Shown here: positions 527 to 23,748 of the stretch, piece by piece
Layout of the letters: each line of letters opens with the position of its first letter
Numbering within the stretch: position 1 is the first letter of the stretch
Origin: an uncultured Rhodospirillales bacterium
GTDB lineage: Bacteria > Pseudomonadota > Alphaproteobacteria > Rhodospirillales > UBA2165
Assembly (NCBI GenBank): GCA_913055735.1
Contig: CAJXKD010000001.1
Location: 620,001-684,000 of the forward strand
Length of the DNA stretch: 64,000 bases
Reading direction: 5' to 3'
Position numbers and translations under genes: made by a program
Notes under the pieces: generated by a model
The model's input: only the letters and a program-made list of their open reading frames with translations
The model's database searches: none
What the model was told of the DNA's origin: nothing

Positions 527-1219
527 CTACGTCTCGGCGAATTCAAACGCTTCGAGTACCGTAAACGGCGACTCTTCGTCGGTCTGGGCGCACAAATGGA
601 TACTGTGGACTGATACCGGCGCCTCGCATAACGGGGCCACTTCCTGCGCCAGGGCCGTTTCCACCCTTTTCCGCTGCGCCTCATCCAATTTACCGGTCAG
701 CGTCAAATGAAAGCGGAATTCGTCCATCACATAAGGGTATCCCCATTCATGGATATAAGCCTGCTGCCGGTCCGACAAGTTGACCGCCATACGGCGCTCG
801 ATCTCGCGTTCGGTCGGGTCTGCTCGAAATTCGTCGAATGCCGTGACGCAATCCCGCGCGAGCGCGCTGATCTTGTCCGATGGTTCACTCGGCACGAGGG
901 CTAGGAAATTGCCGAGAACCGCAAGCCGAAGCAACGGCAGCGAAAAGGCCCTGCGCGTTGCGGCAAACCGGCGCGCGACGTCGACCAGCTCGAAAACCTT
1001 TTTTCCTTTTGCCAACCGGAATGGCGGTTTCAACGTTCCGTGAAATCCGTATCTGGCGGGAGAGGCCGTCAGGGCCGAACGCTCTTCGGGCGTGATACCG
1101 GCGGGAACCAAGGGAGTTACAGGCTGGCCGGAGAAATGATTCCGTCCCAACCACCTGCATCCGAATTCAGAGAGAGCACTCCCGCGATCGGGCACGTAGT
1201 AGAAAGCGTAGCGGGTCAT
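527..1219 (-). CDS. DUF1045 phosphonate-metabolism protein, 2H phosphoesterase fold
   Basis: A 230-residue protein of the DUF1045 family, which is usually encoded in phn loci. It shows the two His-x-Thr motifs of 2H phosphoesterases: HGTLKPPF near residue 60 and HLTLTG near residue 170. Other 2H enzymes open cyclic phosphates, including ADP-ribose 1'',2''-cyclic phosphate, and C-P lyase makes the related 5-phosphoribosyl 1,2-cyclic phosphate. No phnP is visible in this window, so this protein is a reasonable candidate for that step; this is inference. It lies about 15 kb from the C-P lyase operon but next to a leader resembling the phnG leader. A minus-strand CTGTCAC heptamer at 1280-1286 could be half of its own Pho box. 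Confidence 0.85.
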   Translation of the reverse strand: MTRYAFYYVPDRGSALSEFGCRWLGRNHFSGQPVTPLVPAGITPEERSALTASPARYGFHGTLKPPFRLAKGKKVFELVDVARRFAATRRAFSLPLLRLAVLGNFLALVPSEPSDKISALARDCVTAFDEFRADPTEREIERRMAVNLSDRQQAYIHEWGYPYVMDEFRFHLTLTGKLDEAQRKRVETALAQEVAPLCEAPVSVHSIHLCAQTDEESPFTVLEAFEFAET

Positions 1220-1292
1220 TTAATTTGAAGATTTGTGGTTGGCGGGCGCGTCACGCTATCTCAATCATTTTGCAAACACGTGACAGGCCCAA

Positions 1293-1399
1293 TTGTTGCG
1301 GAACTGCCACCCATCTGTCACGCCCCTTTCGTATAGTTCCCTCATAAATCGTCGCCCGACCCACAACATGTCGTTTCACCGAGTGACGGGACACATATG
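1293..1399 (+). promoter_or_regulatory. PhoB-type promoter and leader, copy of the phnG leader
   Basis: This non-coding stretch aligns with the phnG leader at 16526-16633 with one single-base gap. Nearly identical blocks are TGTTGCGGAACTG, TGTCACGCC followed by CTTTC one base later, and the last 38 bases before an ATG, which share CACAACAT, TCGTT, CGAG and GACGGGA. A Pho box (CTGCCAC-CCAT-CTGTCAC) lies at 1304-1321 and a good -10 (TATAGT) at 1332-1337, ten bases after the box as in classical PhoB promoters. The conserved ATG at 1397 does not lead into phnG. The promoter may now drive the HU-like gene, or be a relic of a moved phn operon. Confidence 0.7.
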
Positions 1400-1567
1400 G
1401 CGGGGGCGGAGTTCCCGTGGGCGGCACCTGTCCGAGACGCAATAAAGCCCAATCAACCCGCCGAGCCGGCCCTTTTTGATCGGTCGGCATCTCCGGCAGG
1501 CTCGTTACCTTTGGTTTACCTTTGTTTGTCTATGGTGGCGCGACTCCCAATCACCGGCAAAGTTTGA
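1397..1567 (+). other. Possible 56-codon ORF behind the duplicated Pho leader
   Basis: The ATG sits exactly where phnG starts in the related leader and has the same GGGA ribosome-binding site. The predicted peptide (MAGAEFPWAAPVRDAIKPN...) has no similarity to PhnG or to any family I recognise. It ends 43 bases before the HU-like gene. It may be a leader peptide, a chance frame left after the original gene was lost, or simply 5' untranslated RNA. Low confidence. Confidence 0.2.
1505..1524 (+). repeat. Tandem TTACCTTTG repeat, 11-bp period
   Basis: TTACCTTTG occurs at 1505-1513 and again at 1516-1524, one helical turn apart, about 90 bases upstream of the HU-like start. Two in-phase direct repeats are the usual layout of a response-regulator operator. 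The sequence does not match the Pho box consensus. A regulator cannot be assigned. Confidence 0.35.
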
Positions 1568-1610
1568 GGTTATTCAATCATTTGCCAAGGCCGAACACGA
1601 AGGAAATGCC

Positions 1611-1979
1611 ATGACCGTGACAAAGACCCAGCTTGCCGATGCCTATTCCGCCGCCCTGAACAAATCGTTGGGCAAGGCGTGGGACCACAAATTCAGCCGC
1701 AAGGACGCGAACACCCTCCTCGATGCCCTGTGGCCGGTCGTCTCCGACCTCGCTCTTAAGGATACCAAGAAGAAGACGCCGGGCAGCGTGCCGCTCGGCC
1801 ATCTTGGCCGTATCAAGATGCGGTACAAGGAAGCGACGAAGGCCCGTAAGGGCACCAATCCCTTCACCGGCGAGCCGACCACTTTCAAGGCCAAGCCGGC
1901 AACCCTGCAGCCGCGCTTCACCGCGGGCAAAGCGTTCAAGGACGAAGCGGGCAAGTACTTCAGAAGCAAAATGAAGTAG
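1611..1979 (+). CDS. Divergent HU-like nucleoid DNA-binding protein
   Basis: A basic 122-residue protein. The C-terminal half matches the DNA-binding arm of HU/IHF: a conserved small-residue turn (PLGHLGRIKMRYKEATKARK), then GTNPFTGEP, corresponding to GRNPxTGE, and ending FTAGKAFKDEAGKYF as HU proteins end in FKPGKALKD. The N-terminal half is longer than in HU, with extra residues around GKAWDHKF and a KDTKKKTPG insertion. The start is the ATG at 1611 behind GAAGGAA. HU-type proteins bend and compact DNA. It lies downstream of the duplicated Pho leader, so it may be phosphate-regulated. The family is likely; the specific role is unknown. Confidence 0.7.
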   Translation: MTVTKTQLADAYSAALNKSLGKAWDHKFSRKDANTLLDALWPVVSDLALKDTKKKTPGSVPLGHLGRIKMRYKEATKARKGTNPFTGEPTTFKAKPATLQPRFTAGKAFKDEAGKYFRSKMK

Positions 1980-2199: not shown

Positions 2200-2706
2200 A
2201 TGGCCGGCAACGATCGGTCCGTATTGGTCCGTCTATTGCTCACGCATTATGAGGATTTGACGGGATATCTGACGCGACGGCTGGGGTCGGCGGGCGCGGC
2301 ACGCGACGTCGTGCACGACACCTACTTGCGGCTCCAAGGCCTTGAAGCCCTGCCCGACCTAAGCAACCCGCGCGCTTATCTTTTCCGGATCGCCGACAAT
2401 ATCGCGCTGGATCGGCTCCGCGCCGATAGCCGCCGCAGCCGACGGTTCGTCGCCGCCGAACTGGGCGAGAGCCGGGAGAGTGACGAACCCAATGCGGAAG
2501 AGATACTGACGCAAAAACAGCGCGTGGAACGGCTTGTGCGCGCCATTGACGAATTGCCACCCCGGCAGCGTGACGTCTTCCTGATGCACAAATTTGATGG
2601 CCTAACCCATGCCGAGATCGCAAAGCGCCTCGGCATCTCTAAAAGCATGGTGGAAAAGCATGCCATGCGGGCGCTGGCCTATTGTCGTGATCGCCTCAAG
2701 CAGTGA
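2200..2706 (+). CDS. FecI-type ECF sigma factor
   Basis: A 168-residue extracytoplasmic-function sigma factor. Region 2 (residues about 10-75) contains VVHDTYLRLQG and NPRAYLFRIADNIALDRLR, a typical FecI-group pattern. Region 4 (about 105-160) has LPPRQRDVFLMHKFDGL and the helix-turn-helix LTHAEIAKRLGISKSMVEKH. It is followed by a FecR gene and a TonB receptor with an STN domain, so it is the sigma factor of a ferric-siderophore surface-signalling cascade: substrate-loaded receptor signals through FecR, releasing this sigma factor to transcribe the receptor operon. The upstream Fur box predicts expression only when iron is scarce. Confidence 0.93.
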   Translation: MAGNDRSVLVRLLLTHYEDLTGYLTRRLGSAGAARDVVHDTYLRLQGLEALPDLSNPRAYLFRIADNIALDRLRADSRRSRRFVAAELGESRESDEPNAEEILTQKQRVERLVRAIDELPPRQRDVFLMHKFDGLTHAEIAKRLGISKSMVEKHAMRALAYCRDRLKQ

Positions 2707-2854
2707 GCCTCGGAAGTGACACACGATCAACATGCCCGTTTTCTCATCCGCCGGGGTGCGGATTACGGGCCGTTGTGTCGTCATAGTGATAATGAAGCCA
2801 GTGTGTTCTCCGGCAGTCGCGTGTCAGCCGGTCCCATATGTGCGGTAGCAGGTG

Positions 2855-3823
2855 ATGTCCGACTCTCCTGATCCGAAAAAAACGCCTCACGACGAGGCGC
2901 TCGCTTGGTTTGTGCGCCTGAATTCCGGTGACGCGACAGATGATGATCGCGCCCGCTTTAGTGAGTGGTTACGTGCCAGTGCGGACAACTGCCAAGCCTA
3001 TGACCAACTGGAAACGCTTTGGACCGACCTCGACCATGTCCCAGATCCGCGCCGCCCCGGCCGTTCCCGCCATGCCAGCCTTTCCCGCCGCACACTCCTG
3101 ACCGGAGCAGCAGGCTTAACGGCAACCGCCGGACTCGTGATCGCCTCCGGCGTCACTATCGACACTTTGGGCGGTATGGTTCACGGCGACTACCATACCG
3201 GTACCGGGGAACGTAGAACGATCCATACACCCGATGGCTCTGCCGTCGAACTGGACGCGGAAACGGCAATCGCCATCGAATTCGATACACAGGTCCGCAG
3301 GCTCCGTCTGTTGACGGGACGGGCGGTGTTCAACGTCGCCTCTGATCCGACCAGGCCGTTCGACGTTGTCTGCGCCGGCGGCACTGTCCGAGCACTCGGC
3401 ACCACATTCGCCGTCCACAAAAGGCCGACGGACACGGCCGTCGCAGTAGCGGAAGACGCGGTCACGGTTGTGATCGGCCCACCGGACGCAGGCGGCAAGG
3501 AGGCACGAGTCACAGAGGGTCAACGTATCACTTATGACACCGAAGGTTTCGGGCCGCTTGTCTCCGCCAGCGATGGCGCCGAAACTGCCTGGCTGCGCAA
3601 CAAGTTGGTGTTCCGCGATCGTCCTCTTGGCGACGTCATCGCTGACCTGAATCGCTACCGGCAGGGACGTATCGTCATATGGGACGATGCGCTGCTGAAT
3701 CTCCATGTCGATGGCATTTTCAACACTGGGAATCCCGACGGCGCGCTTGCCGCGATTGTAGGCACACTCCCGGCACGCGATTTCCGGCTAACCCCTTATC
3801 TGGTTATCCTCAGAAGCGCCTGA
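2855..3823 (+). CDS. FecR-type anti-sigma/transmembrane sensor
   Basis: About 322 residues. The cytoplasmic N-terminal domain (EALAWFVRLNSGDATDDDR, then FSEWLRASADNCQAYD) is the DUF4880 sigma-binding segment. A single membrane helix follows near residues 80-105, preceded by SRRTLLTG, a twin-arginine-like start seen in some FecR proteins. The periplasmic FecR domain includes ERRTIHTPDGSAVELDAETA and the C-terminal part (LNRYRQGRIVIWD) resembles the STN-interacting domain. It inhibits or activates the neighbouring sigma factor depending on the receptor. GTG at 2852 is an equally possible start; neither has a strong ribosome site. Confidence 0.9.
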   Translation: MSDSPDPKKTPHDEALAWFVRLNSGDATDDDRARFSEWLRASADNCQAYDQLETLWTDLDHVPDPRRPGRSRHASLSRRTLLTGAAGLTATAGLVIASGVTIDTLGGMVHGDYHTGTGERRTIHTPDGSAVELDAETAIAIEFDTQVRRLRLLTGRAVFNVASDPTRPFDVVCAGGTVRALGTTFAVHKRPTDTAVAVAEDAVTVVIGPPDAGGKEARVTEGQRITYDTEGFGPLVSASDGAETAWLRNKLVFRDRPLGDVIADLNRYRQGRIVIWDDALLNLHVDGIFNTGNPDGALAAIVGTLPARDFRLTPYLVILRSA

Positions 3824-3888
3824 CGCATAAAAAAAATTCCAACAAGGGTGAGGTGTCCCCGTCCTTACATCGTCTGGAATTATGTAGA

Positions 3889-3903
3889 TGCGAATGCATC
3901 TCA
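3889..3903 (+). promoter_or_regulatory. Second Fur-type box before the TonB receptor
   Basis: TGCGAATGCATCTCA matches the box at 2098-2112 (TGAGAATGATTCTCA) at 12 of 15 positions and keeps the 7-1-7 layout. It lies 30 bases before the receptor start and is followed by CATTTTCAAATAA, as the first box is followed by AAATAAT. This suggests direct iron control in addition to the sigma factor. Confidence 0.55.
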
Positions 3904-3933
3904 TTTTCAAATAAGAGCGACAAGGACCAAACC

Positions 3934-6393
3934 ATGAAGAAGCGAGGATTTCCTGAGGCATTCACTCTTCATCGCCAAGGCGCTGGATGTGCTGTTGCCG
4001 CGCTGATGTTCGGGATGACGGCCGGCGGATATGTTGCGCCGGCCTCGGCGGCAAGTGATGAAATAGTAGTTGCAACGGTTGAGGCCGCACAGGCCCGACG
4101 GGACGAGGCACTTACCTTCAACATTCCAGGTGGCCCATTGCCCGATGTGCTCGCCGCGTTCGGCGAACGAACAGGCCTGCAGGTCCTTTACCCTTCCGCC
4201 GTGGCACGTGAATCCGTTTCGCAAGGCGTCTCCGGTACGATGACACCGGAAGACGCTCTCGTACGGCTCCTTGGCCGCACCGGTCTTCTCTACCGGTTTT
4301 CCGCGGCCAACACTGTTACGGTAGAGCCCCCTAATGCCGACGCGACGGTATTGACCCCGATCACCGTCGAGGGACAAAGGGAAACCGCCACCGGTCCTGT
4401 CGAGGGTTTCCGCGCCACACGCAGCGCGTCGGGAACGAAAACCGATACGCCGCTCGTAGAAACGCCGCAATCCATTTCCGTGATCACGGCCGATGAGCTG
4501 AAATCTCGGAATGTCAACAAATTCAATGACTCGCTGCGGTATACGCCGGGCGTTGAATCGGAGCTGTACGGCCTCGAGCCTCGCTTCTCTCACCTGAGCA
4601 TGCGCGGCCTTCTATCTTCGTCGACGGGTTTGTTCCAGGACGGCATGGGGCTGATGAACCAACCCGGCTTGATCGTCAGTTACAATCCCGAACCCTGGGG
4701 CGCAGAGCGTATCGAAGTACCGCGCGGCCCTGCGTCGGTATTGTTCGGGCAGGGGAGCCCCGGCGGCCTTGTGAACTATGTTTCCAAACGGCCGACAACC
4801 GATCCATTCGCGATCACCCACCTCGAAACCGGCAGTTATAACCGGTTCCAGACGAAATTCGATGTCGGGGGCGCCGTCACAGAGAATAAGGACCTCGCGT
4901 TTCGGGTGGCCGGGCTGTTTCGCCGCAGCGACACGCAGATCGATTTCCTGGAGGATGACCGGATTTGGATCTCCCCACAGCTGTCATGGCAGGCGGTAGA
5001 CAGCACGAAGATCACCATCTTCGGCATGCACCAGCAGGACGATACCCAGAATTCGCAGGCGTTGCCGGGTATCGGCACGCTCTTTGACAACCCGAACGGA
5101 TCGGTGCCGCACTCCCGATATGTCGGCGAACCAGCCCACGATCAATACGACCGTACCGAATACGCCGCCGGCTATGAGGTGGAGCACAAAGCGAGCGATA
5201 CACTCAATGTGCGACACAAGGTTCGTTATCACGTTGTCGATCTGAACGACGACATCGCCTACGGTTCCGGCTTCGACGGGAACCGGACATTAAGCCGCAC
5301 ATTTTATTCCAACCATGGCAACACAAAGTCGCTGACGGCCGATACGAACGCGGAACTCAAAACATCCTTTGCCGGATCTGAGCACACACTTCTCGGCGGG
5401 ATCGACGTACAGTATGCCGACATGGAGACCGTCCAGAACAGCGGCACTGTCGCGTCGCTCGACATCTTCACACCAACATACGGTGCCTCCATTACCGGCC
5501 TGTCACCGACAGTCCTCAAGGATTTCATCAAAACGCAGTATGGGGTGTATGGACAGGACCAGATCGAACTGGGCGAGCACTGGCGGTTCACGTTGGGGGG
5601 ACGTTACGACTGGGCGGTCAATGAGACTGACAACCATCTCAACAACACACAGTCAACACAGCGCGACGAAGCCTTCACCGGCCGCGCCGGCGTGGTTTAT
5701 CTGTTCGATAACGGTATCGCGCCGTACGCGAGCTATTCGGAATCGTTCCTTCCCATCACCGGCAGCACCAGCGCCAGCGGGGATTTCTTTGAGCCCGAAA
5801 CAGGGCAACAGTATGAAGCCGGCGTCAAATATCAACCGCCCGGACACGATAGCTTCGTGACTGTCGCAGCATTCGACCTGCGCCGCCAGAATTACACCGA
5901 ATATGACAGCGGTTTGATGGCGACCGTGCAGACCGGCGAGGTTCGTTCGCAGGGCATCGAGGTGGAGGGTTTGGCGAGTTTCGATTTCGGCCTCGAAATC
6001 AAGGCTGGTTATACATACCTGCAAACGGAGGTGCTGAAGAGTAACAATGCGTCGGAAGTCGGTAAAAAGTTGACCCAGATACCGGACCATAAGGCAACAT
6101 TGTGGGCCGAATACAAGGTCCCGCACGGAACATTCAAAGGATTGGGACTGGGTGCCGGCATCCGCTATCAGGATAGGCACTACGGCGACAATCAGAACAC
6201 GCTATCGGTCCCCGGGTATACGTTGTTCGATGCGGCAGCTTACTACGAGGTCGATAAATTTCGTTTCGGCATAAACGCGCAGAACCTGCTCGACCAGGAG
6301 CACTTGGGATCCTGCTATTACAGAAGTACGTCGGTGCTCTGTACGGTCGGCGAAGGGCTGATGGTGACCGCAAATGTTTCCTATGAGTGGTGA
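3934..6393 (+). CDS. TonB-dependent ferric-siderophore receptor with STN signalling domain
   Basis: About 819 residues. A signal peptide ends near PASAASD; then comes an STN domain (residues about 45-130: LTFNIPGGPLPDVLAAFGERTG, a FecA/FpvA-type periplasmic signalling module), a TonB-box-like TPITVEG, the plug (TDTPLVETPQSISVITADEL and VPRGPASVLFGQGSPGGLVN) and a 22-strand barrel ending in the aromatic residue W after NVSYE. The barrel repeats LGGRYDWAVNETD and YASYSESFLP are typical of hydroxamate or mixed-type siderophore receptors. The STN domain links it to the adjacent FecI/FecR pair. ATG at 3934 is chosen because it gives the signal peptide directly; the frame is open further upstream. 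The ligand cannot be named. Confidence 0.95.
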   Translation: MKKRGFPEAFTLHRQGAGCAVAALMFGMTAGGYVAPASAASDEIVVATVEAAQARRDEALTFNIPGGPLPDVLAAFGERTGLQVLYPSAVARESVSQGVSGTMTPEDALVRLLGRTGLLYRFSAANTVTVEPPNADATVLTPITVEGQRETATGPVEGFRATRSASGTKTDTPLVETPQSISVITADELKSRNVNKFNDSLRYTPGVESELYGLEPRFSHLSMRGLLSSSTGLFQDGMGLMNQPGLIVSYNPEPWGAERIEVPRGPASVLFGQGSPGGLVNYVSKRPTTDPFAITHLETGSYNRFQTKFDVGGAVTENKDLAFRVAGLFRRSDTQIDFLEDDRIWISPQLSWQAVDSTKITIFGMHQQDDTQNSQALPGIGTLFDNPNGSVPHSRYVGEPAHDQYDRTEYAAGYEVEHKASDTLNVRHKVRYHVVDLNDDIAYGSGFDGNRTLSRTFYSNHGNTKSLTADTNAELKTSFAGSEHTLLGGIDVQYADMETVQNSGTVASLDIFTPTYGASITGLSPTVLKDFIKTQYGVYGQDQIELGEHWRFTLGGRYDWAVNETDNHLNNTQSTQRDEAFTGRAGVVYLFDNGIAPYASYSESFLPITGSTSASGDFFEPETGQQYEAGVKYQPPGHDSFVTVAAFDLRRQNYTEYDSGLMATVQTGEVRSQGIEVEGLASFDFGLEIKAGYTYLQTEVLKSNNASEVGKKLTQIPDHKATLWAEYKVPHGTFKGLGLGAGIRYQDRHYGDNQNTLSVPGYTLFDAAAYYEVDKFRFGINAQNLLDQEHLGSCYYRSTSVLCTVGEGLMVTANVSYEW

Positions 6394-6410
6394 CCAACCT
6401 GTGCCACGGG

Positions 6411-6439
6411 AAAGGCGGGCCGCGGCAGGCCCGCCTTTT
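6411..6439 (+). terminator. Terminator/attenuator after the receptor gene
   Basis: A perfect 11-bp stem, AAAGGCGGGCC / GGCCCGCCTTT, with a six-base loop and a short T run, begins 18 bases after the receptor stop. It lies before three further iron-associated membrane genes on the same strand, so it may reduce read-through rather than end the unit. Confidence 0.75.
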
Positions 6440-6445
6440 GCGCAC

Positions 6446-6721
6446 ATGAGACGCAACAATTCTCTCGTCGCGCGCTGGCTGCTGGGCAGCGTCGGCGTTC
6501 TCACCGCCGCCCTTCTGTTTACGATGGCCCTGCCCGTCCTACTACCGCCGGGTCCCGCCGAGATCGATAACATCGTCTGGCCGCTCGTCCTGGCGCCGGT
6601 CTTCTGGGCACTCCTATTCACTTACATCTGCCTGGAGGAAAACTTGCGGCGCAGCGCCATCCTCCTCGGGGGAATTAGCGTTGTTTGCGGCACTATCGTC
6701 GGCTTCACGCTCTTCGCTTAG
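6446..6721 (+). CDS. Small iron-uptake membrane protein, DUF3649-like
   Basis: From the ATG at 6446 the product is 91 residues with about three hydrophobic helices: LVARWLLGSVGVLTAALLF, IVWPLVLAPVFWALLFTYI and AILLGGISVVCGTIVGFTLF. A small protein of this kind between a siderophore receptor and a PepSY membrane protein is the usual setting of DUF3649. The frame also has ATGs at 6374 and 6383 inside the receptor gene, but those would place the terminator hairpin inside the coding region, so the later ATG is preferred. No clear ribosome site is seen. The role in iron transfer across the inner membrane is inferred from context. Confidence 0.65.
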   Translation: MRRNNSLVARWLLGSVGVLTAALLFTMALPVLLPPGPAEIDNIVWPLVLAPVFWALLFTYICLEENLRRSAILLGGISVVCGTIVGFTLFA

Positions 6722-6742
6722 TTCGGCAGTGAGGCCACGAAC

Positions 6743-8323
6743 ATGAAAAACTTGTCGCAAATTCAAATCAAACGGCTGACAACGGTACACGGTTGGTCCG
6801 GCACCATCCTCGGCGTCCTGCTCTATGCCGTGATCGTCACAGGAACGATTGCTGTCTTCGCACACGAGATCGCCGATTGGTCGGTCGGCGGCACGGGAAA
6901 AACAGATACGCTCAGTGCCACCATTGATCGCAACGTACGCGCCGTCGTCGAGCCCCTCCCCGAGAAATACCGGCACAGCATCGGCGTTTGGAAAACGGCA
7001 CGGAGCGAGTTAATCGTATTTCCTCACTTCCACACCCGCAATCCCGAGACCGGGAAAATGGAAGATTATGGACCGATGTTCCGAATGGATCGCGGCACGG
7101 GTGAGGTTCTCGCCCGTCATGAAGGCTTCGCCTTTTTGAATGCCGACTGGTACAGAGCCAGCGCGCTCGAGAATTTCCTCGTTGATCTGCATGTCCAACT
7201 CTATATCCCTGAGCCATGGGGATTAATCGTCACCGGCATTCTTGGTCTGACCATGATGGCGGCCGGTGTGAGCGGCCTTGTTATCCACCGTCATCTGATA
7301 CGTGATCTGTTTGTCGCCGAACGCTCCGGCGAACGCCTCGTCTCGGCCCGGGACCGGCACGTATTGGCAGCGAGTTGGGGTCTGGTGTTCGCGTTTCTTC
7401 TTGGGTTCACGGGCTCGTTCTTCAGCTTCGCGCCCACCATTACCTTTCCCTTGCTGGCTGAGGTTGCATTCGGCGGCGATCAGGAAGCTTTGGAGGAAAC
7501 GCTCTACACGCCGCAAGTCAACGAGGACGCCCGACCGGTACCGATGGCCGATCTCGGCCAAATGGTTTCACGTTCCAGCGCGACCACCGGATCGAACACC
7601 GGATACATAGAAATCATGAACTACGGCCGTGCCGACTCCCGGATCAGCATCTGGCAGGAGCCACCCGCCCGCCAATTGTCCTGGGTGCACAATGTATTCG
7701 ACGGTGGCAGCGGCGAATTCCTGGGCGCAAAACCCATCGTCGGACAGAAACCGTCGATCGGCGGCGTTCTTTACGATCTCATGTGGCCGCTTCACGCGGG
7801 CGATTTCGCCGGCGTACTCTCCAAATCGGTTTGGGTCGGGCTCGGCTCGGCAATGGCATTCGTGGTCATTTCGGGCCTCCGGCTCTGGGTAAGACGACGA
7901 GAAGAGCAACCTCTATGGCGCCGGTTTGGCCGTGTCATAACCATTGTCGCCTACGGATTGCCGGTCGCGATCCTGACTTGTGCCCATGCAAATTTCCTGG
8001 CGCTTGCCACGGGAGCGAACCCTTTCTGGTGGACGCCGGCCGGATTCCTGATCGGGTTTGCACCGTGCATTTTGCCGGGACTTTTGATATCGGATGATGA
8101 ACCGCTGCGGCGCCTTTACCGTTATCTGCTCGGTGGCGGCTGCGTACTGCTTCCCTTGATCAGGATGGCAACAGGAGGCCTCGATTGGCGCGCCGCACTT
8201 CATGCGGGACAGACAACTGTCGTTTCCGTTGATATAACGCTCATTCTCTTGGGCTTCACGCTGATCTGGTGGGCGCAGCGTCCGCGAATAGCGGCTAAGC
8301 CAGACCCTGCGCCAGCGGAATGA
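6743..8323 (+). CDS. PepSY-associated membrane protein (iron-regulated, PiuB-like)
   Basis: A 526-residue inner-membrane protein. The N-terminus (RLTTVHGWSGTILGVLLYA) is the PepSY-TM first helix, followed by a long periplasmic loop, then pairs of helices around residues 160-190, 205-235, 370-395 and several near the C-terminus. Conserved His residues in VHGW, DLHVQLY and WVHNVFDGG suggest haem or metal binding, as proposed for reductive release of iron from siderophores in this family. It starts behind GTGAGGCC and is followed after 13 bases by a DUF3325-like gene. Family assignment is secure; biochemical role is inferred. Confidence 0.85.
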   Translation: MKNLSQIQIKRLTTVHGWSGTILGVLLYAVIVTGTIAVFAHEIADWSVGGTGKTDTLSATIDRNVRAVVEPLPEKYRHSIGVWKTARSELIVFPHFHTRNPETGKMEDYGPMFRMDRGTGEVLARHEGFAFLNADWYRASALENFLVDLHVQLYIPEPWGLIVTGILGLTMMAAGVSGLVIHRHLIRDLFVAERSGERLVSARDRHVLAASWGLVFAFLLGFTGSFFSFAPTITFPLLAEVAFGGDQEALEETLYTPQVNEDARPVPMADLGQMVSRSSATTGSNTGYIEIMNYGRADSRISIWQEPPARQLSWVHNVFDGGSGEFLGAKPIVGQKPSIGGVLYDLMWPLHAGDFAGVLSKSVWVGLGSAMAFVVISGLRLWVRRREEQPLWRRFGRVITIVAYGLPVAILTCAHANFLALATGANPFWWTPAGFLIGFAPCILPGLLISDDEPLRRLYRYLLGGGCVLLPLIRMATGGLDWRAALHAGQTTVVSVDITLILLGFTLIWWAQRPRIAAKPDPAPAE

Positions 8324-13745: not shown

Positions 13746-13864
13746 CGATGTCCCCAATGTCAAATTCGGGGCGCTTTATAGCGAAGAAATGCGTCAACCA
13801 GATGAAACGGAAACTCTTCGGCACTTAAGAAATATGACGGTTTCGCAATCTGATCGACACAAAC

Positions 13865-13893
13865 AGTTCATCGTTCTGAAAAGCATCGGTCAT
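13865..13893 (+). promoter_or_regulatory. Possible three-unit Pho box before phnD-1
   Basis: AGTTCAT, CTGAAAA and CGGTCAT are separated by four bases each (11-base period) about 97 bases before phnD-1. The third unit matches CTGTCAT at 6 of 7 positions and the other two at 4 of 7. The layout is that of a Pho box but the match is weak; the divergent PhnM paralogue shares this 244-base intergenic region. Confidence 0.3.
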
Positions 13894-13989: not shown

Positions 13990-14862
13990 ATGTTGAAGAA
14001 ATTGCTTGGCGGACTTGCCGTTGCCATGACGGTAGCCATTTCACCCTTGGCGGCACAGGCTGCCGATTCCATGCGCTTCGCCGTCACCGACATCGGCGGC
14101 ATGGAGGAACTACAACGAGAATTCGGACCGTTCAAAAAGGTCCTCGAGGACATTACCGGCCTCGACGTTCAGTTCTTTGCCGTCAACAGCCGCACCGCCG
14201 CCGTTGAAGCCATGAACGCGAAGCAGGTTGATTTTGTGCTGACCGGTCCCGCCGAGTACGTCGTGTTTCGGGCCCGCACCAACGCCAAGGTCGTGGTCGG
14301 CTGGCAGCGCCCGGATTATTTCGCGCAAATCGTTACCCTTGCCGATGGGCCGATCAAGGGCGTCAGCGATTTGAAGGGACAAAAAGTGTCCTTCGGCTCG
14401 GTGGGCTCCACCTCGCAGCATCTGGGGCCGGCCCAGGCGCTCGCCGATTTCGGGCTCATCTATAACAAGGACTATCAGCCGCAAATCATCAGCCGCAACA
14501 TCGCGATCGAGGCCTTGATCCGGGGCGACATCCAGGCGGTGGGCATGAACTTCACCCATTTGCAGAAAGTCCGGAAGGCCTTTCCCGACCATGCGTTTAC
14601 AGTAGTTGCCCGTGGCCGAGATCTCCCCAATGACGTCCTCGTCGCCAGCCCAGACGTTTCGGATGCGCTGTTCAAAAAAGTCCGCAATGCTTTTGCTAAA
14701 GACGGCGACAAGCTGATAGCCGCGGTCGTGAAGGGCAAGGACAACGAGAAATATCTCGGCGGACACTTCCTCGCCTCTATCGAGGATAGGGATTACGACT
14801 ATGTCCGCTCCATGTACCGGACCATCGGCGTCAATTCCTTCGGCAAATTCGTGGGGGAATAA
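13990..14862 (+). CDS. phnD: Phosphonate ABC transporter substrate-binding protein (first system)
   Basis: A 290-residue periplasmic protein. The signal peptide (LLGGLAVAMTVAISPLAAQA) ends near residue 24. The PhnD/phosphonate-binding fold follows: FGPFKKVLEDITGL, DFVLTGPAEYVVFRART, and GQKVSFGSVGSTSQHLGPAQAL, where the Ser/Thr-rich loop binds the phosphonate group. It directly precedes an ATP-binding and a permease gene, giving a complete transporter of order D-C-E. Sequence differs strongly from PhnD-2 at 24677, so the two systems likely bind different ligands. The ligand (phosphonate, phosphite or ester) cannot be decided from sequence. Confidence 0.92.
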   Translation: MLKKLLGGLAVAMTVAISPLAAQAADSMRFAVTDIGGMEELQREFGPFKKVLEDITGLDVQFFAVNSRTAAVEAMNAKQVDFVLTGPAEYVVFRARTNAKVVVGWQRPDYFAQIVTLADGPIKGVSDLKGQKVSFGSVGSTSQHLGPAQALADFGLIYNKDYQPQIISRNIAIEALIRGDIQAVGMNFTHLQKVRKAFPDHAFTVVARGRDLPNDVLVASPDVSDALFKKVRNAFAKDGDKLIAAVVKGKDNEKYLGGHFLASIEDRDYDYVRSMYRTIGVNSFGKFVGE

Positions 14863-15699
14863 GTGGCCACCTCGAACACGGCCACGGTTCAACCCGTATA
14901 CGGTGAGTCTCAGGCACCGGCCGCACCGCGGCCGGTGCCGGTTGCCGATCTCAGCGCCGACCCGGTTTGCACCATCCGAAACCTCACCAAGTCATTTTCG
15001 GGAAGCACCCATATCCTGCGCGGTATCGATCTGAACATCGGCCAAGGCGAATCGGTCGCGTTGATCGGCTCCAACGGGGCTGGAAAATCGACGCTGTTGC
15101 GCTGCCTGGTGCGGCTTATCGAGCCCAACGGCGGCAGCATCCATCTTCTCGACCGGCCCGTTATGGAATTGGGGAGCCGCCAGTTGCGACGGCTCCGTTC
15201 CCAGGTCGGCTTTGTTTTTCAACGCCACAATCTAGTGCCGCGCCTCACCGCGCTAACCAACGTCCTTCATGGCGCCCAAGCCACCCAATCGGGGCCGCGC
15301 GTCTGGTACCAGTCGTTGGCGTCGTCGGAAACACGCCAACATGCCATGCATTGTTTGGATCGTGTCGGGCTTTCCGATATCGCCCTTCGACGCGCCGATC
15401 AGTTGTCGGGTGGCCAGTCGCAACGCGTCGCTATCGCCCGCACCCTTATGCAAAAACCCAAATTCGTCATCGCGGATGAGCCTGTGGCCAGCCTCGATCC
15501 TGTCGCCGGGGTCGAAGTCATGGATTTGTTCGTCCAGCTTCTGCGCGAGGACGGCATTACCCTGCTCTTCACCTCACACCATCTGGGGCAAGCGATCGAG
15601 TTCTCTGACCGGGTCATCGGGCTGCAAGCCGGACAGGTGACACTGAACTGTCAGTCCGCCAAGGCGCATGTCAGCGAACTGAAACATGTCTATGAATAG
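14863..15699 (+). CDS. phnC: Phosphonate ABC transporter ATP-binding protein (first system)
   Basis: A 278-residue ABC ATPase starting with GTG directly after the phnD-1 stop. Walker A is GSNGAGKST, the signature LSGGQSQRVAIART and Walker B VIADEPVASLDP, with the DPVAG continuation typical of PhnC. About 40 residues of Ala/Pro-rich sequence precede the ATPase domain. It energises the permease encoded next, whose start overlaps this gene by 14 bases. Confidence 0.93.
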   Translation: MATSNTATVQPVYGESQAPAAPRPVPVADLSADPVCTIRNLTKSFSGSTHILRGIDLNIGQGESVALIGSNGAGKSTLLRCLVRLIEPNGGSIHLLDRPVMELGSRQLRRLRSQVGFVFQRHNLVPRLTALTNVLHGAQATQSGPRVWYQSLASSETRQHAMHCLDRVGLSDIALRRADQLSGGQSQRVAIARTLMQKPKFVIADEPVASLDPVAGVEVMDLFVQLLREDGITLLFTSHHLGQAIEFSDRVIGLQAGQVTLNCQSAKAHVSELKHVYE

Positions 15700-16522
15700 T
15701 ATCGCGGCGAATCAATCTCGTGATGCCGCGCCGCCAAAGCCGCCAAATCCACCTGGACGTTTCGGGCGGCCCAATCCGCTCGCCTTCGTGCTCTATGTGG
15801 CAGCGGCCGCGTTTGTCTTGGTTGCTTTACAAAACTCCGGCCTGTCGATCGAGCGGCTGGCACGTGGTCTTCCCAGCATCAGCCGTATTCTCGGCCAGAT
15901 GTTCCCGCCCAATATGGAGCGTCTCGGCCCCATCGCACTTTCCCTGTTCGAAACCTTTCAGATGGCGGTCGCGGGCACGGCACTCGGCATCCTTTTCAGC
16001 CTGCCCCTCGCTATTCTCGCTTCACGGGGACTGTCCCCGCATCCCGCCGTCTATTACTCCGCACGCAGTCTGATTTCCTTCTTCCGGACGGTTCCGGATC
16101 TTATTTGGGCGTTGTTTTTTGTCATCGCGGTCGGATTGGGTCCGGCGGCGGGCACGCTCGCCATTATGGTCGATACCATCGGGTTCTGCGGCCGCTTTTT
16201 CGCCGAGGCGATGGAAGACACCGACACAGGACCTCGCGAAGCGTTGACGGCCATCGGGGGATCCCGCACCGGCATGATCTTTTCCGCCGTCATCCCGCAG
16301 GCGATGCCGTCCTTCATCAACACGTCGCTGTTCAGCCTCGAAAAGTCGACCCGTTCGTCCGTCGTTCTCGGCCTCGTCGGGGCCGGCGGGATCGGTATCG
16401 AACTCAAAGTGGCGATGGACCTGTTCACCTACGACATCGCCTGCACGATCATCTTGTTGGTGTTCCTGCTGGTCCTAGTAGTCGAACAAGCGAGCGGCTA
16501 TCTGCGCAGCAAAATCATCTAG
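15686..16522 (+). CDS. phnE: Phosphonate ABC transporter permease (first system)
   Basis: A 278-residue inner-membrane permease. After a Pro/Asn-rich N-terminus, about six helices follow, the first near residues 30-50 (FVLYVAAAAFVLVALQNSG). The loop that docks to the ATPase is EAMEDTDTGPREALTAIGGSR, the EAA motif of PhnE, and LGLVGAGGIGIEL marks the conserved C-terminal region. It is the last gene of phnDCE-1; the C-P lyase operon begins 108 bases downstream with its own promoter. Confidence 0.92.
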   Translation: MSMNSIAANQSRDAAPPKPPNPPGRFGRPNPLAFVLYVAAAAFVLVALQNSGLSIERLARGLPSISRILGQMFPPNMERLGPIALSLFETFQMAVAGTALGILFSLPLAILASRGLSPHPAVYYSARSLISFFRTVPDLIWALFFVIAVGLGPAAGTLAIMVDTIGFCGRFFAEAMEDTDTGPREALTAIGGSRTGMIFSAVIPQAMPSFINTSLFSLEKSTRSSVVLGLVGAGGIGIELKVAMDLFTYDIACTIILLVFLLVLVVEQASGYLRSKII

Positions 16523-16525
16523 GCA

Positions 16526-16630
16526 CTGTTGCGGAACTGTAATCGGCGTGTCACGCCGCTTTCACAATGCTCTGCTCTAATCCGCGCGGGTCACACACAA
16601 CATATCGTTACATCGAGCGACGGGATACAT
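16526..16630 (+). promoter_or_regulatory. Pho-box promoter and leader of the C-P lyase operon
   Basis: The box CTGTAAT-CGGC-GTGTCAC at 16537-16554 has the 7-4-7 layout of PhoB sites. CACAAT at 16563-16568 is a candidate -10. The segment from here to the phnG ATG closely resembles the leader at 1293-1399, with the flanks best conserved (TGTTGCGGAACTG at the left, CACAACATnTCGTTnCA and the GACGGGA ribosome site at the right). It predicts induction of phnG-N by phosphate starvation. Confidence 0.7.
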
Positions 16631-17104
16631 ATGACGGTCGAGAAAGCGCAGGCAACCGACGCATTTGCCGAACGAAAACACTGGATGTCCGTGCTGGCCA
16701 AGGCGGACGGGACCGATCTCGAAAAAGCTTGGCAATCCCTTTCGATAAAACCCGATTACGATTTTCTCCGTGCCCCCGAAACGGGTCTGGTGATGGTCCG
16801 TGCCCGCGCCGGCGGCGTCGGACAGCCGTTCAATTTCGGTGAAATGACGGTAACGCGCTGCACGGTTCGCCTCGCCAATGGCGCGACCGGTTTTGGCTAT
16901 GTTTCGGGCACCGATCGGCGCCATGCCGAGCTCGCGGCCGTGTTCGACGCGCTGATGCACGACACCGATCTCAGCGATCAAATCGCCAATGAGGTAATCG
17001 ATCCGCTCGACGCGGCCCACGCAGCCGAGAAAAGGAAGAAAGCGGCCAAGAGCGCCGCGACGAAAGTGGAATTCTTCACCATGGTACGGGGCGAGAACGA
17101 CTGA
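16631..17104 (+). CDS. phnG: C-P lyase complex subunit PhnG
   Basis: A 157-residue protein, close to the usual 150. It contains RKHWMSVLAKADG near the N-terminus, the PhnG hallmark QPFNFGEMTVTRCTVRLANGATGFGYVSGTDRRHAELAAVFDAL (residues about 60-110), and a Lys-rich C-terminus. PhnG works with PhnH, I and L in coupling the phosphonate to the ribose of ATP, and is a core part of the PhnGHIJ complex. First gene of the operon; the ATG at 16631 has GGGA six bases upstream and overlaps phnH by one base at its stop. Confidence 0.95.
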   Translation: MTVEKAQATDAFAERKHWMSVLAKADGTDLEKAWQSLSIKPDYDFLRAPETGLVMVRARAGGVGQPFNFGEMTVTRCTVRLANGATGFGYVSGTDRRHAELAAVFDALMHDTDLSDQIANEVIDPLDAAHAAEKRKKAAKSAATKVEFFTMVRGEND

Positions 17105-17739
17105 TGCCGACAACGCTTACTGCCACCGGAAGCCATCCCGACCTCGCACCCGGGTTTAAGGACCCCGTTTTCGACGCGCAGACACAATTCCGTAACATTT
17201 TGACGGCCATGTCCCATCCCGGGCAGGTCGTTGCGCTCAACACCGGCCTCGAGCCGCCGGCACCGCTTTCGTCGGCTGCGGCAGCTGTCGCGCTGACGCT
17301 GGTGGATTTCGAAACACCGGTTTGGCTGGACGCTTCGATGTCCAACGAGGCGGTTACGGCCTTCCTGCGCTTTCATACCGGTTGTCCCGTCGCCGGCGGC
17401 GCCGAAGAAGCCCGCTTCGCCTTTATTGCCGACGGCGCGACCCCCCTTGACCCCACCCGTTTCGACCTCGGCACGGACGAATATCCAGACCTCGGCGCGA
17501 CAGTGGTGGTTCAGGTGCCGTCTCTCGCGCAAGGCGCGGACAGCGGAACGGAATTCTCCGGACCGGGAATCGAGGACAAGACATATGTCGAAATCGGCGG
17601 GCTTGCCGACGATTTTTGGGCGGAGCGCAACGCCATTTGCGAGTTGTTCCCCCGCGGCCTCGACATTCTTTTCACGTGCGGCGACACGCTGTGCGCCGTC
17701 CCGCGCTCGACCAAGGTGGAGACATTGGCATGTATGTAG
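17104..17739 (+). CDS. phnH: C-P lyase complex subunit PhnH
   Basis: A 211-residue protein. PLP-fold-like PhnH features include PVFDAQTQFRNILTAMSHPG at the N-terminus, ALTLVDFETPVWLD and the C-terminal AERNAICELFPRGLDILFTCGDTLCAVPRSTKV. It binds PhnI within the core complex. It starts on the last base of the phnG stop and overlaps phnI by ten bases, so translation is coupled. Confidence 0.95.
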   Translation: MPTTLTATGSHPDLAPGFKDPVFDAQTQFRNILTAMSHPGQVVALNTGLEPPAPLSSAAAAVALTLVDFETPVWLDASMSNEAVTAFLRFHTGCPVAGGAEEARFAFIADGATPLDPTRFDLGTDEYPDLGATVVVQVPSLAQGADSGTEFSGPGIEDKTYVEIGGLADDFWAERNAICELFPRGLDILFTCGDTLCAVPRSTKVETLACM

Positions 17740-18830
17740 CGGTCAAAGGCGGCGAGAAAGCCATTGAAAATTCGCTCGATCTCGTTGCCGAAGAGCGCCG
17801 TGGCGACCGTGATGTTCCTGAACTCACGATCGAGCAGATCAAATCGCAGATGGCTTTAGCCGTTGATCGCGTGATGACCGAAGGGTCGATTTACGATCGC
17901 GATCTCGCGGCCCTCGCCATCAAACAGGCTCAAGGCGACATTATCGAAGCGGTGTTCCTGCTGCGGGCCTATCGGACGACGCTCCCCCGATTCGGTTATT
18001 CGGCGCCCATTGATACGGCGCAAATGGGTATCCAGCGGCGTATTTCGGCAACCTACAAGGATTTGCCGGGCGGCCAGATTCTCGGCCCGACGTACGATTA
18101 CACCCACCGTTTGCTGGATTTCGATCTGACGGAGGAAAACCGCAACGGCCCCGCGGCTGCCCGCACGGCGCCCGAGGCGGTCAATGACGGCGAAATTCCC
18201 CACGTCACCGATCTGCTCAACCACGAAGGGCTGATCCAGCAAGAGCCGGAAACCGATGAAGACGCCCCCATTGCCGATCTGACGCGTCAGCCGCTGGCGT
18301 TCCCTGCCGGCCGGGACTTGCGGCTTCAGAACCTGGCGCGCGGCGACGAGGGATTCCTGCTCGCGCTCGGCTACTCGACCCAACGCGGTTACGGCAACAA
18401 CCACCCCTTCGTCGGTGAGATTCGCATGGGCGAGGTTTCGGTCGAGATCGAACCCGAGGAACTCGGCTTTCCCATCGAGATCGGCGAGATTACGGTCACC
18501 GAGTGCGAACTGGTCAACCAGTTCGCCGGCACCGCCGACAGTCCGCCCCAGTTCACGCGCGGATACGGACTAAGCTTCGGCAAGGCGGAACGTAAAGCCA
18601 TCGCCATGGGCCTCGTCGACCGGGCGCTGCGGTGCCGCGAGTTGGGCGAGGAACCGACAGCACCGGCGCAGGACGAAGAGTTCGTTCTCTATCACACCGA
18701 CAATGTCGAAGCATCTGGCTTCCTGCAGCACCTCAAGCTGCCGCATTACGTTGATTTCCAATCCGAGCTCGAACTGATCCGCAAATTGCGCGCGGAGTAC
18801 ATGGCGCGCCGCCAAGCGGCGGCCGAATAG
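17730..18830 (+). CDS. phnI: C-P lyase complex subunit PhnI (nucleosidase)
   Basis: A 366-residue protein starting MYVAVKGGEKAIENSLDLVA, which matches PhnI; the frame is open further upstream in phnH but this ATG overlaps the phnH stop by only ten bases. Other family segments are GSIYDRDLAALAIKQAQGD, LPRFGYSAP, ISATYKDLPGGQILGPTYDYTHRLLDF and GEIRMGEVSVEIEPEELGFPIEIGEITVTECE. With G, H and L it displaces adenine from ATP to form ribose 1-phosphonate triphosphate. Eight bases separate it from phnJ. Confidence 0.96.
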   Translation: MYVAVKGGEKAIENSLDLVAEERRGDRDVPELTIEQIKSQMALAVDRVMTEGSIYDRDLAALAIKQAQGDIIEAVFLLRAYRTTLPRFGYSAPIDTAQMGIQRRISATYKDLPGGQILGPTYDYTHRLLDFDLTEENRNGPAAARTAPEAVNDGEIPHVTDLLNHEGLIQQEPETDEDAPIADLTRQPLAFPAGRDLRLQNLARGDEGFLLALGYSTQRGYGNNHPFVGEIRMGEVSVEIEPEELGFPIEIGEITVTECELVNQFAGTADSPPQFTRGYGLSFGKAERKAIAMGLVDRALRCRELGEEPTAPAQDEEFVLYHTDNVEASGFLQHLKLPHYVDFQSELELIRKLRAEYMARRQAAAE

Positions 18831-18838
18831 AGGAAAAC

Positions 18839-19753
18839 ATGCCGCAACCCAGCTCTCTCAAAGCCGGCTACAACTTCGCCTATCTCGACGAGCAAACCAA
18901 ACGGATGATCCGCCGCGCGATCCTGAAAGCGGTTGCGATCCCCGGCTATCAGGTGCCGTTCGGCAGCCGCGAGATGCCCTTGCCCTACGGCTGGGGCACG
19001 GGCGGCATACAGGTCACCGCCGGCATCATCGGTCCCGATGACACGCTCAAAGTCATAGACCAGGGCGCCGACGACACGACCAACGCCGTTTCCATCCGCC
19101 GCTTTTTCGCCAATACCGCCGGTGTGGCGACGACAGAGCAGACGGAGGACGCGACCATTATCCAAACCCGTCACCGGATCCCGGAAACGCCGCTCCAGGC
19201 CGGACAGATCCTGGTCTATCAGGTCCCCATCCCGGAGCCGCTCCGCTGGCTGGAGCCGAGGGAAACCGAGACCCGCAAGATGCATGCCCTTCAGGAATAC
19301 GGCATCATGTACGTCCGGCTGTACGAAGACATTTCCCGGTACGGTCATATTTCCACGGCCTACGACTATCCCGTGATGGTCAATGGCCGTTACCTGATGC
19401 GGCCGTCGCCCATCCCCAAATTCGACAATCCGAAAATGGACCGCAACCCGGCCCTGCAGCTGTTCGGCGCGGGCCGTGAGAAACGTATCTACGCGGTGCC
19501 GCCTTATACGTCGGTGAAAAGCCTCGACTTCAAGGACTATCCCTTCCAGGTCCAGAAATGGGACGACTGCTGCACGCTCTGCGGCGCCGACGACAGTTTC
19601 CTCGACGAGATCATCACCGACGACGCGGGCGGGCGCATGTTTGTCTGTTCCGACAGCGACTATTGCGCCAAGCGCCGCGACGCCGGGCATAGCGGCCCCA
19701 ACCCTGGCGAAGCCGCGACCAAGAAAATCGGCGAAGCAGGAGACGCCGCGTGA
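18839..19753 (+). CDS. phnJ: Carbon-phosphorus lyase, radical SAM subunit PhnJ
   Basis: A 304-residue enzyme that cleaves the C-P bond of ribose 1-phosphonate 5-phosphate. The four iron-sulfur cysteines are at about residues 245, 248, 270 and 276; the spacings 3-22-6 equal those of the E. coli enzyme. An extra Cys precedes the first. The glycyl-radical region AVAIPGYQVPFGSREMPLPYGWGTGG and PSPIPKFDNPKMDRNPALQLFGAGREKRIYAVPPYT are fully conserved. GTGA overlap with phnK couples the two genes. No residue of the active site appears lost. Confidence 0.97.
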   Translation: MPQPSSLKAGYNFAYLDEQTKRMIRRAILKAVAIPGYQVPFGSREMPLPYGWGTGGIQVTAGIIGPDDTLKVIDQGADDTTNAVSIRRFFANTAGVATTEQTEDATIIQTRHRIPETPLQAGQILVYQVPIPEPLRWLEPRETETRKMHALQEYGIMYVRLYEDISRYGHISTAYDYPVMVNGRYLMRPSPIPKFDNPKMDRNPALQLFGAGREKRIYAVPPYTSVKSLDFKDYPFQVQKWDDCCTLCGADDSFLDEIITDDAGGRMFVCSDSDYCAKRRDAGHSGPNPGEAATKKIGEAGDAA

Positions 19754-20541
19754 CCGCACTTATGGATCAAGACCAACCGCTGCTGCGCGTCAGCAGCGTG
19801 ACCAAATACTACGATCTGATGATCGGTTGCCGGAACGTATCGTTCGATCTGTGGCCAGGCGAGGTGCTGGGCATTGTCGGCGAGTCGGGCTCCGGCAAAT
19901 CGACGTTGTTGAATTGTCTGTCGACGCGGCTTGAGCCCAATTCAGGCGCCATTGAATACAATACGCGTGCCAGCGGTCTGGTCGACCTCTTCACCATGTC
20001 GGAAGCCGAACGCCGCATGCTGATGCGTACCGATTGGGGCTTCGTGCACCAGAACCCCCGCGATGGATTGCGCATGGGCGTGAGTGCCGGTGCCAATATC
20101 GGCGAGCGCATGATGGCGGTCGGCGCCCGCGTCTACGGCGACATCCGCGAGTCCGCGGCCCATTGGCTCGGCCGGGTGGAATTCGATATCGACCGCATGG
20201 ACCACCTCCCGAGCACCTTTTCCGGCGGCATGCAGCAACGTGTCCAGATCGCCCGCAACCTCGCGGTCAACCCCCGGCTCATTTTCATGGACGAACCGAC
20301 GGGCGGGCTTGATGTGTCGGTTCAGGCGCGGTTGCTCGATTTGCTGCGCGAGCTTGTCGGCGATCTCGGTCTATCCGCCATCGTCGTTACCCACGATCTC
20401 GCCGTGGCGCGCCTTCTATCCCATCGCCTGATGGTCATGCGCAACGGCGAGGTGGTCGAGAGCGGCCTGACGGATCAGGTACTGGACGATCCGCAGCACC
20501 CCTATACGCAACTCCTCGTTTCCTCGATCTTGCAGGTGTGA
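19750..20541 (+). CDS. phnK: C-P lyase ABC-type ATPase PhnK
   Basis: A 263-residue ATPase beginning with GTG in a GTGA overlap with phnJ. Walker A GESGSGKST, signature FSGGMQQRVQIARNL and Walker B LIFMDEPTGGLD are intact; the GLDVSVQARLLDLLREL continuation is typical of PhnK. It resembles oligopeptide-type ATPases but binds the C-P lyase core rather than a permease. Seven bases separate it from phnL. Confidence 0.96.
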   Translation: MTALMDQDQPLLRVSSVTKYYDLMIGCRNVSFDLWPGEVLGIVGESGSGKSTLLNCLSTRLEPNSGAIEYNTRASGLVDLFTMSEAERRMLMRTDWGFVHQNPRDGLRMGVSAGANIGERMMAVGARVYGDIRESAAHWLGRVEFDIDRMDHLPSTFSGGMQQRVQIARNLAVNPRLIFMDEPTGGLDVSVQARLLDLLRELVGDLGLSAIVVTHDLAVARLLSHRLMVMRNGEVVESGLTDQVLDDPQHPYTQLLVSSILQV

Positions 20542-20548
20542 TTCCGTC

Positions 20549-21250
20549 ATGAACGACTTCTCCCTCAATATCGAAAACCTCTCCAAGAGCTTTACCATTC
20601 ACGCGCAGGGCGGCCTGCGTTTGCCGGTCCTCAAGAGTTTCGATCTGGATGTCGCCAGCGGCGAGTGCATTGCCCTCGTAGGTCCCTCCGGCGCCGGTAA
20701 AAGCACGCTGCTGCGGTGTATTTATGCCAACTATCTGGCCGACAGCGGCCGGATCGCCCTCAACAATCACGGCGAGGTGGTCGATATCCGGACGGCCGCG
20801 CCGCGCGAGGTTTTGAAACTCCGCCAGCATGTCATCGGCTACGTGTCTCAGTTTCTGCGGGTCATTCCCCGCGTGCCGACGGTCCAGGTGGTCGCCGAGC
20901 CTTTGCGGGATCGCAACATTCCGGCCGATGAAGCAACGGCACGGGCGGAGAAGCTTCTCGCGCGCCTCAATGTTCCGGAAAAACTATGGCAAATCCCGCC
21001 GGCAACCTTCTCCGGCGGCGAACAGCAGCGCGTCAATATCGCGCGCGGATTTATCTACGATTTTCCATTGCTCTTGCTCGACGAACCGACAGCCTCCCTC
21101 GACCGGGCGAACGGATCGGTGGTCATCGAGTTGATCAATGAAGCACGGGAACGCGGAGCCGCGATCATCGGCATCTTCCACGACGAGGACGTCCGCGCCG
21201 AGGTGGCGACCCGCCTCGTCGAGGTTCAGCCCCTGCAGGCCGCTGCCTGA
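20549..21250 (+). CDS. phnL: C-P lyase ABC-type ATPase PhnL
   Basis: A 233-residue ATPase. Walker A GPSGAGKST, signature FSGGEQQRVNIARGF and Walker B LLLLDEPTASLD are intact, and RGAAIIGIFHDEDVRAEVATR near the C-terminus is specific to PhnL. It assists the first step, transfer of the phosphonate to ribose. It lies between phnK and phnM in a single run of closely spaced genes. Confidence 0.96.
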   Translation: MNDFSLNIENLSKSFTIHAQGGLRLPVLKSFDLDVASGECIALVGPSGAGKSTLLRCIYANYLADSGRIALNNHGEVVDIRTAAPREVLKLRQHVIGYVSQFLRVIPRVPTVQVVAEPLRDRNIPADEATARAEKLLARLNVPEKLWQIPPATFSGGEQQRVNIARGFIYDFPLLLLDEPTASLDRANGSVVIELINEARERGAAIIGIFHDEDVRAEVATRLVEVQPLQAAA

Positions 21251-21283
21251 AAAAGCCAAACAACCGACAGATACATAGCAAAA

Positions 21284-22432
21284 ATGAACACCGAACAGAT
21301 ACTGACCAACGCTAATATCGTCTGCCGGGATCGGATCATCGAGGGGACGGTGCGCGTCGTCGACGGCAAGATCGCCGAAATCGACGATCAGCCGAGCAGC
21401 CTGTCCTCCGCCGACGACCTCGGCGGTGATTATCTGCTGCCGGGCCTGGTTGAACTCCACTCCGACAATGTCGAGAAGCACTTCGCGCCCCGTCCGGGGG
21501 TTGCCTGGCCGAGCTTGTCAGCCATGGTCGCCCACGATACCCAGATGACAGCGGCCGGCGTTACCACGGTTCTCGACGCGATCCGTATAGGTGACACACA
21601 AGGCAAGGAAGGCGCGCGCTGCGACCGCCATCTCGAAGTCACCAAAGCAATTACTGACGCTGCCGATCAGAGATGTCTGCGCGCCGATCATTTGATCCAT
21701 CTGCGGTGCGAAGTGAGCTACGAGTTCGTCGTCGACGGCTTCGGCGCAGTTGCCGATCATCCGTCGGTGCGGCTGGTTTCCCTCATGGATCACACGCCGG
21801 GGCAGCGGCAATTCGTCAACGTCGACAAGTTCGCCCAGTACTACAAAGGCAAACACGGCCTGAACGACGAACAGCTTGCCGCCTATATGGCCAAGTTGCA
21901 GCACGATCATGAAGTCCACAGCCCTCGCAACCGCCCGGCGTTGGTCGAGGAAGCAAGGGGCAGGGGGCTGCCGCTTGCCAGCCACGACGACGCTATTCCC
22001 GCCCATGTCGCGGAGGCCGTCGGCGAAGGCGTGGTGATCTCCGAGTTCCCAACGACCGTCGAAGCCGCCGCCTGCGCCCGTCAAGAAGGACTATCCATCC
22101 TGATGGGCGCACCGAACTTGGTTCTCGGCGGCTCGCATTCCGGCAACGTCTCGGCCATGCAACTCGCCGAGCACCGCAATCTCGACATTCTGTCCTCGGA
22201 TTATGTCCCGGCGAGCCTGCTGCATGGCGTCTTTCTTGTCGCCGACGCGGACATCGGCATCGAGTTGCCCGACGCCGTTGCGATGGCGTCGGCAACGCCT
22301 GCAGGCACCGTCGGCCTCGACGATCGCGGTGAAATCGCTCCTGGCAAACGCGCCGATCTCATTCACGTGCGGCGCAAAAGCGGCATTCCCATAGCTGTCC
22401 GGATGTGGCGGGAAGGACAGCGCGTTCTTTAG
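21284..22432 (+). CDS. phnM: Alpha-D-ribose 1-methylphosphonate 5-triphosphate diphosphatase
   Basis: A 382-residue amidohydrolase that removes pyrophosphate to leave the PhnJ substrate. Metal-site segments are LPGLVELHSDNVEKHFAPRPG, AAGVTTVLDAIRIGD, LPLASHDDAIPAHV, MGAPNLVLGGSHSGN and ILSSDYVPASLL, followed by the closing LDDRGEIAPGKRADLIHVRR. Compared with the paralogue at 12606 the first His motif is LHSDN rather than IHGDA. It is the main-operon copy and lies 33 bases after phnL. Confidence 0.96.
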   Translation: MNTEQILTNANIVCRDRIIEGTVRVVDGKIAEIDDQPSSLSSADDLGGDYLLPGLVELHSDNVEKHFAPRPGVAWPSLSAMVAHDTQMTAAGVTTVLDAIRIGDTQGKEGARCDRHLEVTKAITDAADQRCLRADHLIHLRCEVSYEFVVDGFGAVADHPSVRLVSLMDHTPGQRQFVNVDKFAQYYKGKHGLNDEQLAAYMAKLQHDHEVHSPRNRPALVEEARGRGLPLASHDDAIPAHVAEAVGEGVVISEFPTTVEAAACARQEGLSILMGAPNLVLGGSHSGNVSAMQLAEHRNLDILSSDYVPASLLHGVFLVADADIGIELPDAVAMASATPAGTVGLDDRGEIAPGKRADLIHVRRKSGIPIAVRMWREGQRVL

Positions 22433-22442
22433 GAGGAAGCGA

Positions 22443-23033: not shown

Positions 23034-23056
23034 ATACCGGCACGAGTTGGCGCGTC

Positions 23057-23632: not shown

Positions 23633-23680
23633 GTCGAGCCCACGTTTTATGACCGGAGTTTCAAAAAAAGTTCATCTACG

Positions 23681-23709: not shown

Positions 23710-23748
23710 TTCTCCCTCCAGCACAACAACCACATTTGGGTATTGGGC

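Follow-up and report, generated by a model that had tools for sequence, protein, structure and literature searches.

Why should a PhoB-type promoter and the leader of a carbon-phosphorus lyase (phn) operon stand where no phn gene follows? The question is raised by an orphan copy of the phnG leader near one end of a 64,000-nucleotide stretch of DNA (hereafter, the window; C1:620001-684000), which we compared with the whole genome (3.73 Mb, three contigs) and with relatives. The features concerned are as follows.

527-1219, minus strand: apparently displaced DUF1045/TIGR03223 two-histidine phosphodiesterase-like gene of phn clusters (TIGR03223 match of 268.5 bits, above the cut-off of 249)
1262-1284, minus strand: putative weak Pho half-site facing the DUF1045 gene (CTGTCAC, with AATGAT 10 nt on; 7.9 bits)
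1293-1399, plus strand: orphan paralogue of the phnG leader; its last three bases, 1397-1399, are an ATG (72.5% identity, E 4e-10)
1293-1332, plus strand: four-unit PhoB array TTGTTGC-GGAA-CTGCCAC-CCAT-CTGTCAC-GCCC-CTTTCGT (Pho box with one mismatch; 14.1 bits)
1332-1337, plus strand: putative -10 hexamer TATAGT, read from the sequence, 10 nt after CTGTCAC, the third unit
1397-1570, plus strand: 57-codon open frame from the leader ATG, unlikely to be a gene (-0.20 per codon in codon scoring; no homologue)
1611-1979, plus strand: HU-like DNA-binding protein of 122 aa (PF00216, 36.5 bits, E 6e-9)
13990-16522, plus strand: phnD, phnC and phnE (profile matches)
16526-16633, plus strand: phnG leader, the other copy (alignment and array scoring)
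16631-23632, plus strand: operon of phnGHIJKLM, a phnZ-like HD oxygenase gene and phnN (named on mixed grounds)

Within the window, BLASTN aligned 1294-1399 with 16527-16633 over 109 columns (72.5% identity, 25 mismatches, E 4.3e-10); the alignment with the phnG leader given in a preliminary description of this DNA thus holds, except that it has three gap openings and not only one. The local score of the pair was 66, compared with at most 29 in 20 whole-window shuffles, and a search of the whole genome found two copies of the leader only (E 1.6e-50 and 2.9e-8). Since the homology begins 4-5 nt past the phnE stop codon and finishes just beyond the ATG, the copied block corresponds almost exactly to the phnE-phnG intergenic region. 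Identities by segment were 13/13, 18/33 and 31/36, the last of these in the part of the orphan leader before the ATG, showing that the homology extends outside the Pho boxes. Conserved islands around a variable middle, as earlier proposed, are a correct description of this alignment, although the identities are not significantly clustered (permutation p 0.07 for the whole, 0.28 with the ends left out). A mobile promoter or repeat family was considered and rejected: the genome has just two copies, and 40 relatives gave chance-like matches of 17-25 nt only, the match in one of them (G002) falling within an apparent coding region. Judged from its sequence, the orphan is a genuine PhoB-type promoter with its leader, phn-derived and lacking the gene that belongs to it.

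A Pho box consists of 11-nt repeats in tandem, each with seven positions conserved and four loose (PMC4415409). The orphan resembles the PhoB-dependent promoters of phn and pst operons in alphaproteobacteria and Escherichia coli in its direct CTGTCAY-N4 repeats of 11 bp (PMC4415409 for the repeat structure) and in a -10 hexamer that follows a unit by about 10 nt, but it differs from them in having no known Pho-regulon gene directly behind it and in being a second copy of another operon's leader. On the sequence side, the Pho box class is marked by two or more 7-bp units in 11-bp phase together with a -10 at the usual distance, and the orphan has both (CTGTCAC gcccctttcg TATAGT), so that the PhoB-type spacing first described was borne out; a transcript would be predicted to start near 1344. 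The phnG leader carries the array CTGTTGC-GGAA-CTGTAAT-CGGC-GTGTCAC-GCCG-CTTTCAC with TCTAAT 10 nt after the fourth unit, and the 11-bp phasing in both leaders is like that of the pstS promoters of relatives. The genome's own pstS, adjoined by a PhoR-like kinase gene (from a reading of the translation), has the promoter CTGTCAC-ATAA-CTGTAAT-GATT-CTGTCAT.

Arrays were scored with heptamer weights that had been trained on pstS promoters of relatives (27 in all) and covered the seven conserved positions only; the linker was dropped from the matrix after the first result had been seen, because a pstS matrix of the full 18 bp, A-rich linker included, had picked up neither leader. At the score of the orphan array, 0.125 chance sites are expected per 64 kb, and the five top four-unit arrays of the window were those at phnG (23.7 bits, with an overlapping register at 14.8), before the gene at 23743 (17.3), before phnD (14.5) and at the orphan (14.1). 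By plain counting of CTGTCAY-N4-CTGTCAY, the genome has six sites that deviate by one mismatch or none, the orphan Pho box among them, and the best pair of the orphan has one mismatch versus two for phnG. The claim that it is better than the phnG box therefore depends on the measure: it stands by the consensus count and fails by the trained score (14.1 versus 23.7 bits). A separate site on the minus strand at 29012-29029, TTGTAATATAACTATAAT, reached 17.6 bits when scored with the full pstS matrix for Pho boxes, a value close to the upper end of the null range.

Within the phn cluster, phnG, phnH, the HD oxygenase gene and phnN were named by profile matches, phnL and phnM by their ABC and amidohydrolase domains, and phnI, phnJ and phnK from their position and conserved place in relatives. 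An irregular, weaker Pho array lies upstream of phnD (13832-13893), and a four-unit array of 17.3 bits (23658-23697) precedes the gene at 23743; this encodes an ABC-transporter ATPase, homologues of which are found with phn clusters in relatives, and likely belongs to a second phosphate-controlled transporter operon. Between both leader copies (2200-8323) is an iron-uptake-like group comprising a FecI-type sigma factor, FecR, a TonB receptor and a PepSY membrane protein.

Translation from the orphan ATG yields no phn gene. The 57-codon frame has a codon score of -0.20 per codon, compared with +0.2 to +0.4 for phnG, the HU-like gene and phnN, and it had no Pfam match and no tblastn match in the fetched loci, which agrees with the initial reading that this ATG is not that of phnG. 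A hidden small protein was rejected, as codon signal, Pfam match and locus match are all absent, and so was a riboswitch or structured leader: apart from a tRNA, the window had no Rfam match, and fold z-scores (0.54 and 0.86) were no better than those of shuffles.

The next gene, 211 bp beyond the leader on the same strand, is HU-like, as first described. A terminator was looked for between 1399 and 1611 and not found, so read-through from the orphan is possible, and with array and -10 intact the leader might have been co-opted as a working promoter of this gene, so that phosphate starvation would raise a nucleoid protein. We consider this unlikely: 211 nt intervene, including an ATG that opens a non-coding frame, and a literature search turned up nothing that points to control of HU by PhoB. 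At E <= 1e-5 the HU-like gene was absent from 59 relatives, and 385 genomes of the class yielded a single close relative (83%); it comes from another order (G498; locus L188, C73:14909-15274) and lies beside an adenylate-cyclase-like gene. Searches gave no match in phages and one match of 40% in plasmids. This patchy distribution suggests horizontal transfer. Neither the leader nor phn genes surround the G498 gene, but it shares with the window gene a ribosome-binding stretch and some upstream motifs, and this partial similarity suggests that the HU-like gene has its own promoter. The suggested phosphate control of the protein thus gained no positive evidence. Quite doubtful, too, is the wider proposal that recruitment of a duplicated phn leader has brought an HU-type nucleoid protein under the control of PhoB, tying phosphate starvation to chromosome packaging.

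On the other side of the orphan, DUF1045 is itself a phn gene, proposed to hydrolyse a cyclic ribose phosphate in phn pathways (PMC8235418). Across 317 genomes of the order, DUF1045 occurs in 118 and phnG in 83, and the two are divergent in at least 11, confirming the predicted linkage of phnG to the DUF1045 gene in relatives. They lie 231 bp apart in one relative (G055), about 1 kb apart in six genomes of genus g82, and about 2.2 kb apart with an amidohydrolase gene between them in four others (G138, G163, G184 and G186); elsewhere DUF1045 is mostly at the operon end or convergent with the operon, the latter in a genome of the same family (G001). The G055 spacer carries one Pho box towards DUF1045 (GCGTCAC-AAAG-CTGTAAC, then 10 nt and TATAGA) and one towards phnG (CTTTCAC-TTAG-CCGACAT-GATT-GCGTCAC). 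The window thus resembles the divergent regions of G055 and g82 (G154 and others) in having DUF1045 on one side and Pho boxes facing each way, but it differs in that no phnG follows the orphan; g82 genomes differ also in the length of the spacer, and the leader DNA has no detectable homology to the G055 spacer. A link between the spacer on the DUF1045 side and the amidohydrolase/phnD spacer was rejected (no homology), and the DUF1045 genes nearest in the gene tree (L068 and L093) have neither leader nor Pho box.

The gene order phnGHIJKLMZN is common to G055 and the window, and in a FastTree phylogeny of concatenated PhnGHIJKL from 43 loci, G055 is the nearest tip to the window (support of 0.36 for the pair and of 0.97 when L059, with DUF1045 at the end of its operon, is included). 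The DUF1045 tree groups the window with other sequences instead of G055 (0.69 and 0.89), and because of this disagreement DUF1045 and the phn operon may not share one history.

We put at roughly 60% the reading that the orphan is a copy of the phnE-phnG intergenic promoter and leader, standing beside a DUF1045 gene displaced in a rearrangement of the phn cluster, and that it may still fire. The preliminary suggestion of a relic of an operon move is upheld in this form. It is supported because the leader homology is beyond chance, limited to two copies and confined to one intergenic region; because DUF1045 is a phn gene found divergent from phnG in at least 11 genomes; because the PhnGHIJKL proteins of the window are nearest to those of G055, with its doubly Pho-boxed shared spacer; because the trained arrays rank top in the window at phn-type units and the orphan; and because the frame behind the leader lacks coding signal. 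A simple version of the relocation is weakened by the low support for the window-G055 pair, the terminal and convergent positions of DUF1045 in L059 and G001, the departure of the DUF1045 tree from the operon tree and the absence of detectable homology in the G055 spacer. The relic history fits the operon tree and the local anatomy, and DUF1045 may have a history of its own.

Before the rearrangement, DUF1045 and either phnG or a copy of the phnG leader would have stood back to back across a shared PhoB-controlled region. During rearrangement of the cluster the leader would have been duplicated or left behind, and the phnG operon would have come to its present place 15 kb away, behind phnDCE and with its own copy of the leader. 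One possible route is that two segments, each bearing the phn leader, underwent a single crossover; the inserted 15 kb would then have a leader copy on either side. With its phased array and well-spaced -10, the orphan probably still starts a PhoB-dependent transcript near 1344 that encodes no phn protein and may continue into the HU-like gene. We infer in which direction and in what order the rearrangement took place, and likewise that the orphan is active at present.

That the orphan is instead a purely decayed, inactive relic is improbable. Its array and -10 region do differ from those of phnG at many positions, its array scores about 10 bits lower, and no test gave significant clustering of conserved positions, but a near-consensus Pho box with TATAGT at the standard 10 nt would be unexpected in a copy drifting to 72% identity. 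PhoB promoters are oriented, and the orphan array is oriented away from DUF1045. With the site that does face this gene being weak (7.9 bits), it is quite improbable that the array chiefly serves DUF1045 as the upstream PhoB operator of a displaced phn gene, even though the gene starts 74 bp from the array and has the half-site towards it, in G055 and G154 DUF1045 comes with a Pho box of its own, and among the proteins listed as raised under phosphate stress in Phaeobacter is one with DUF1045 (PMC10132767).

Under the rearrangement reading, the orphan leader would be a small fossil of the reshuffling of a C-P lyase cluster, with a promoter copied or left standing next to a single displaced gene of that cluster. 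Annotation would miss the probable PhoB-dependent start that it marks, and should the HU-like gene be driven by it, phosphate stress and a nucleoid protein would be directly linked.
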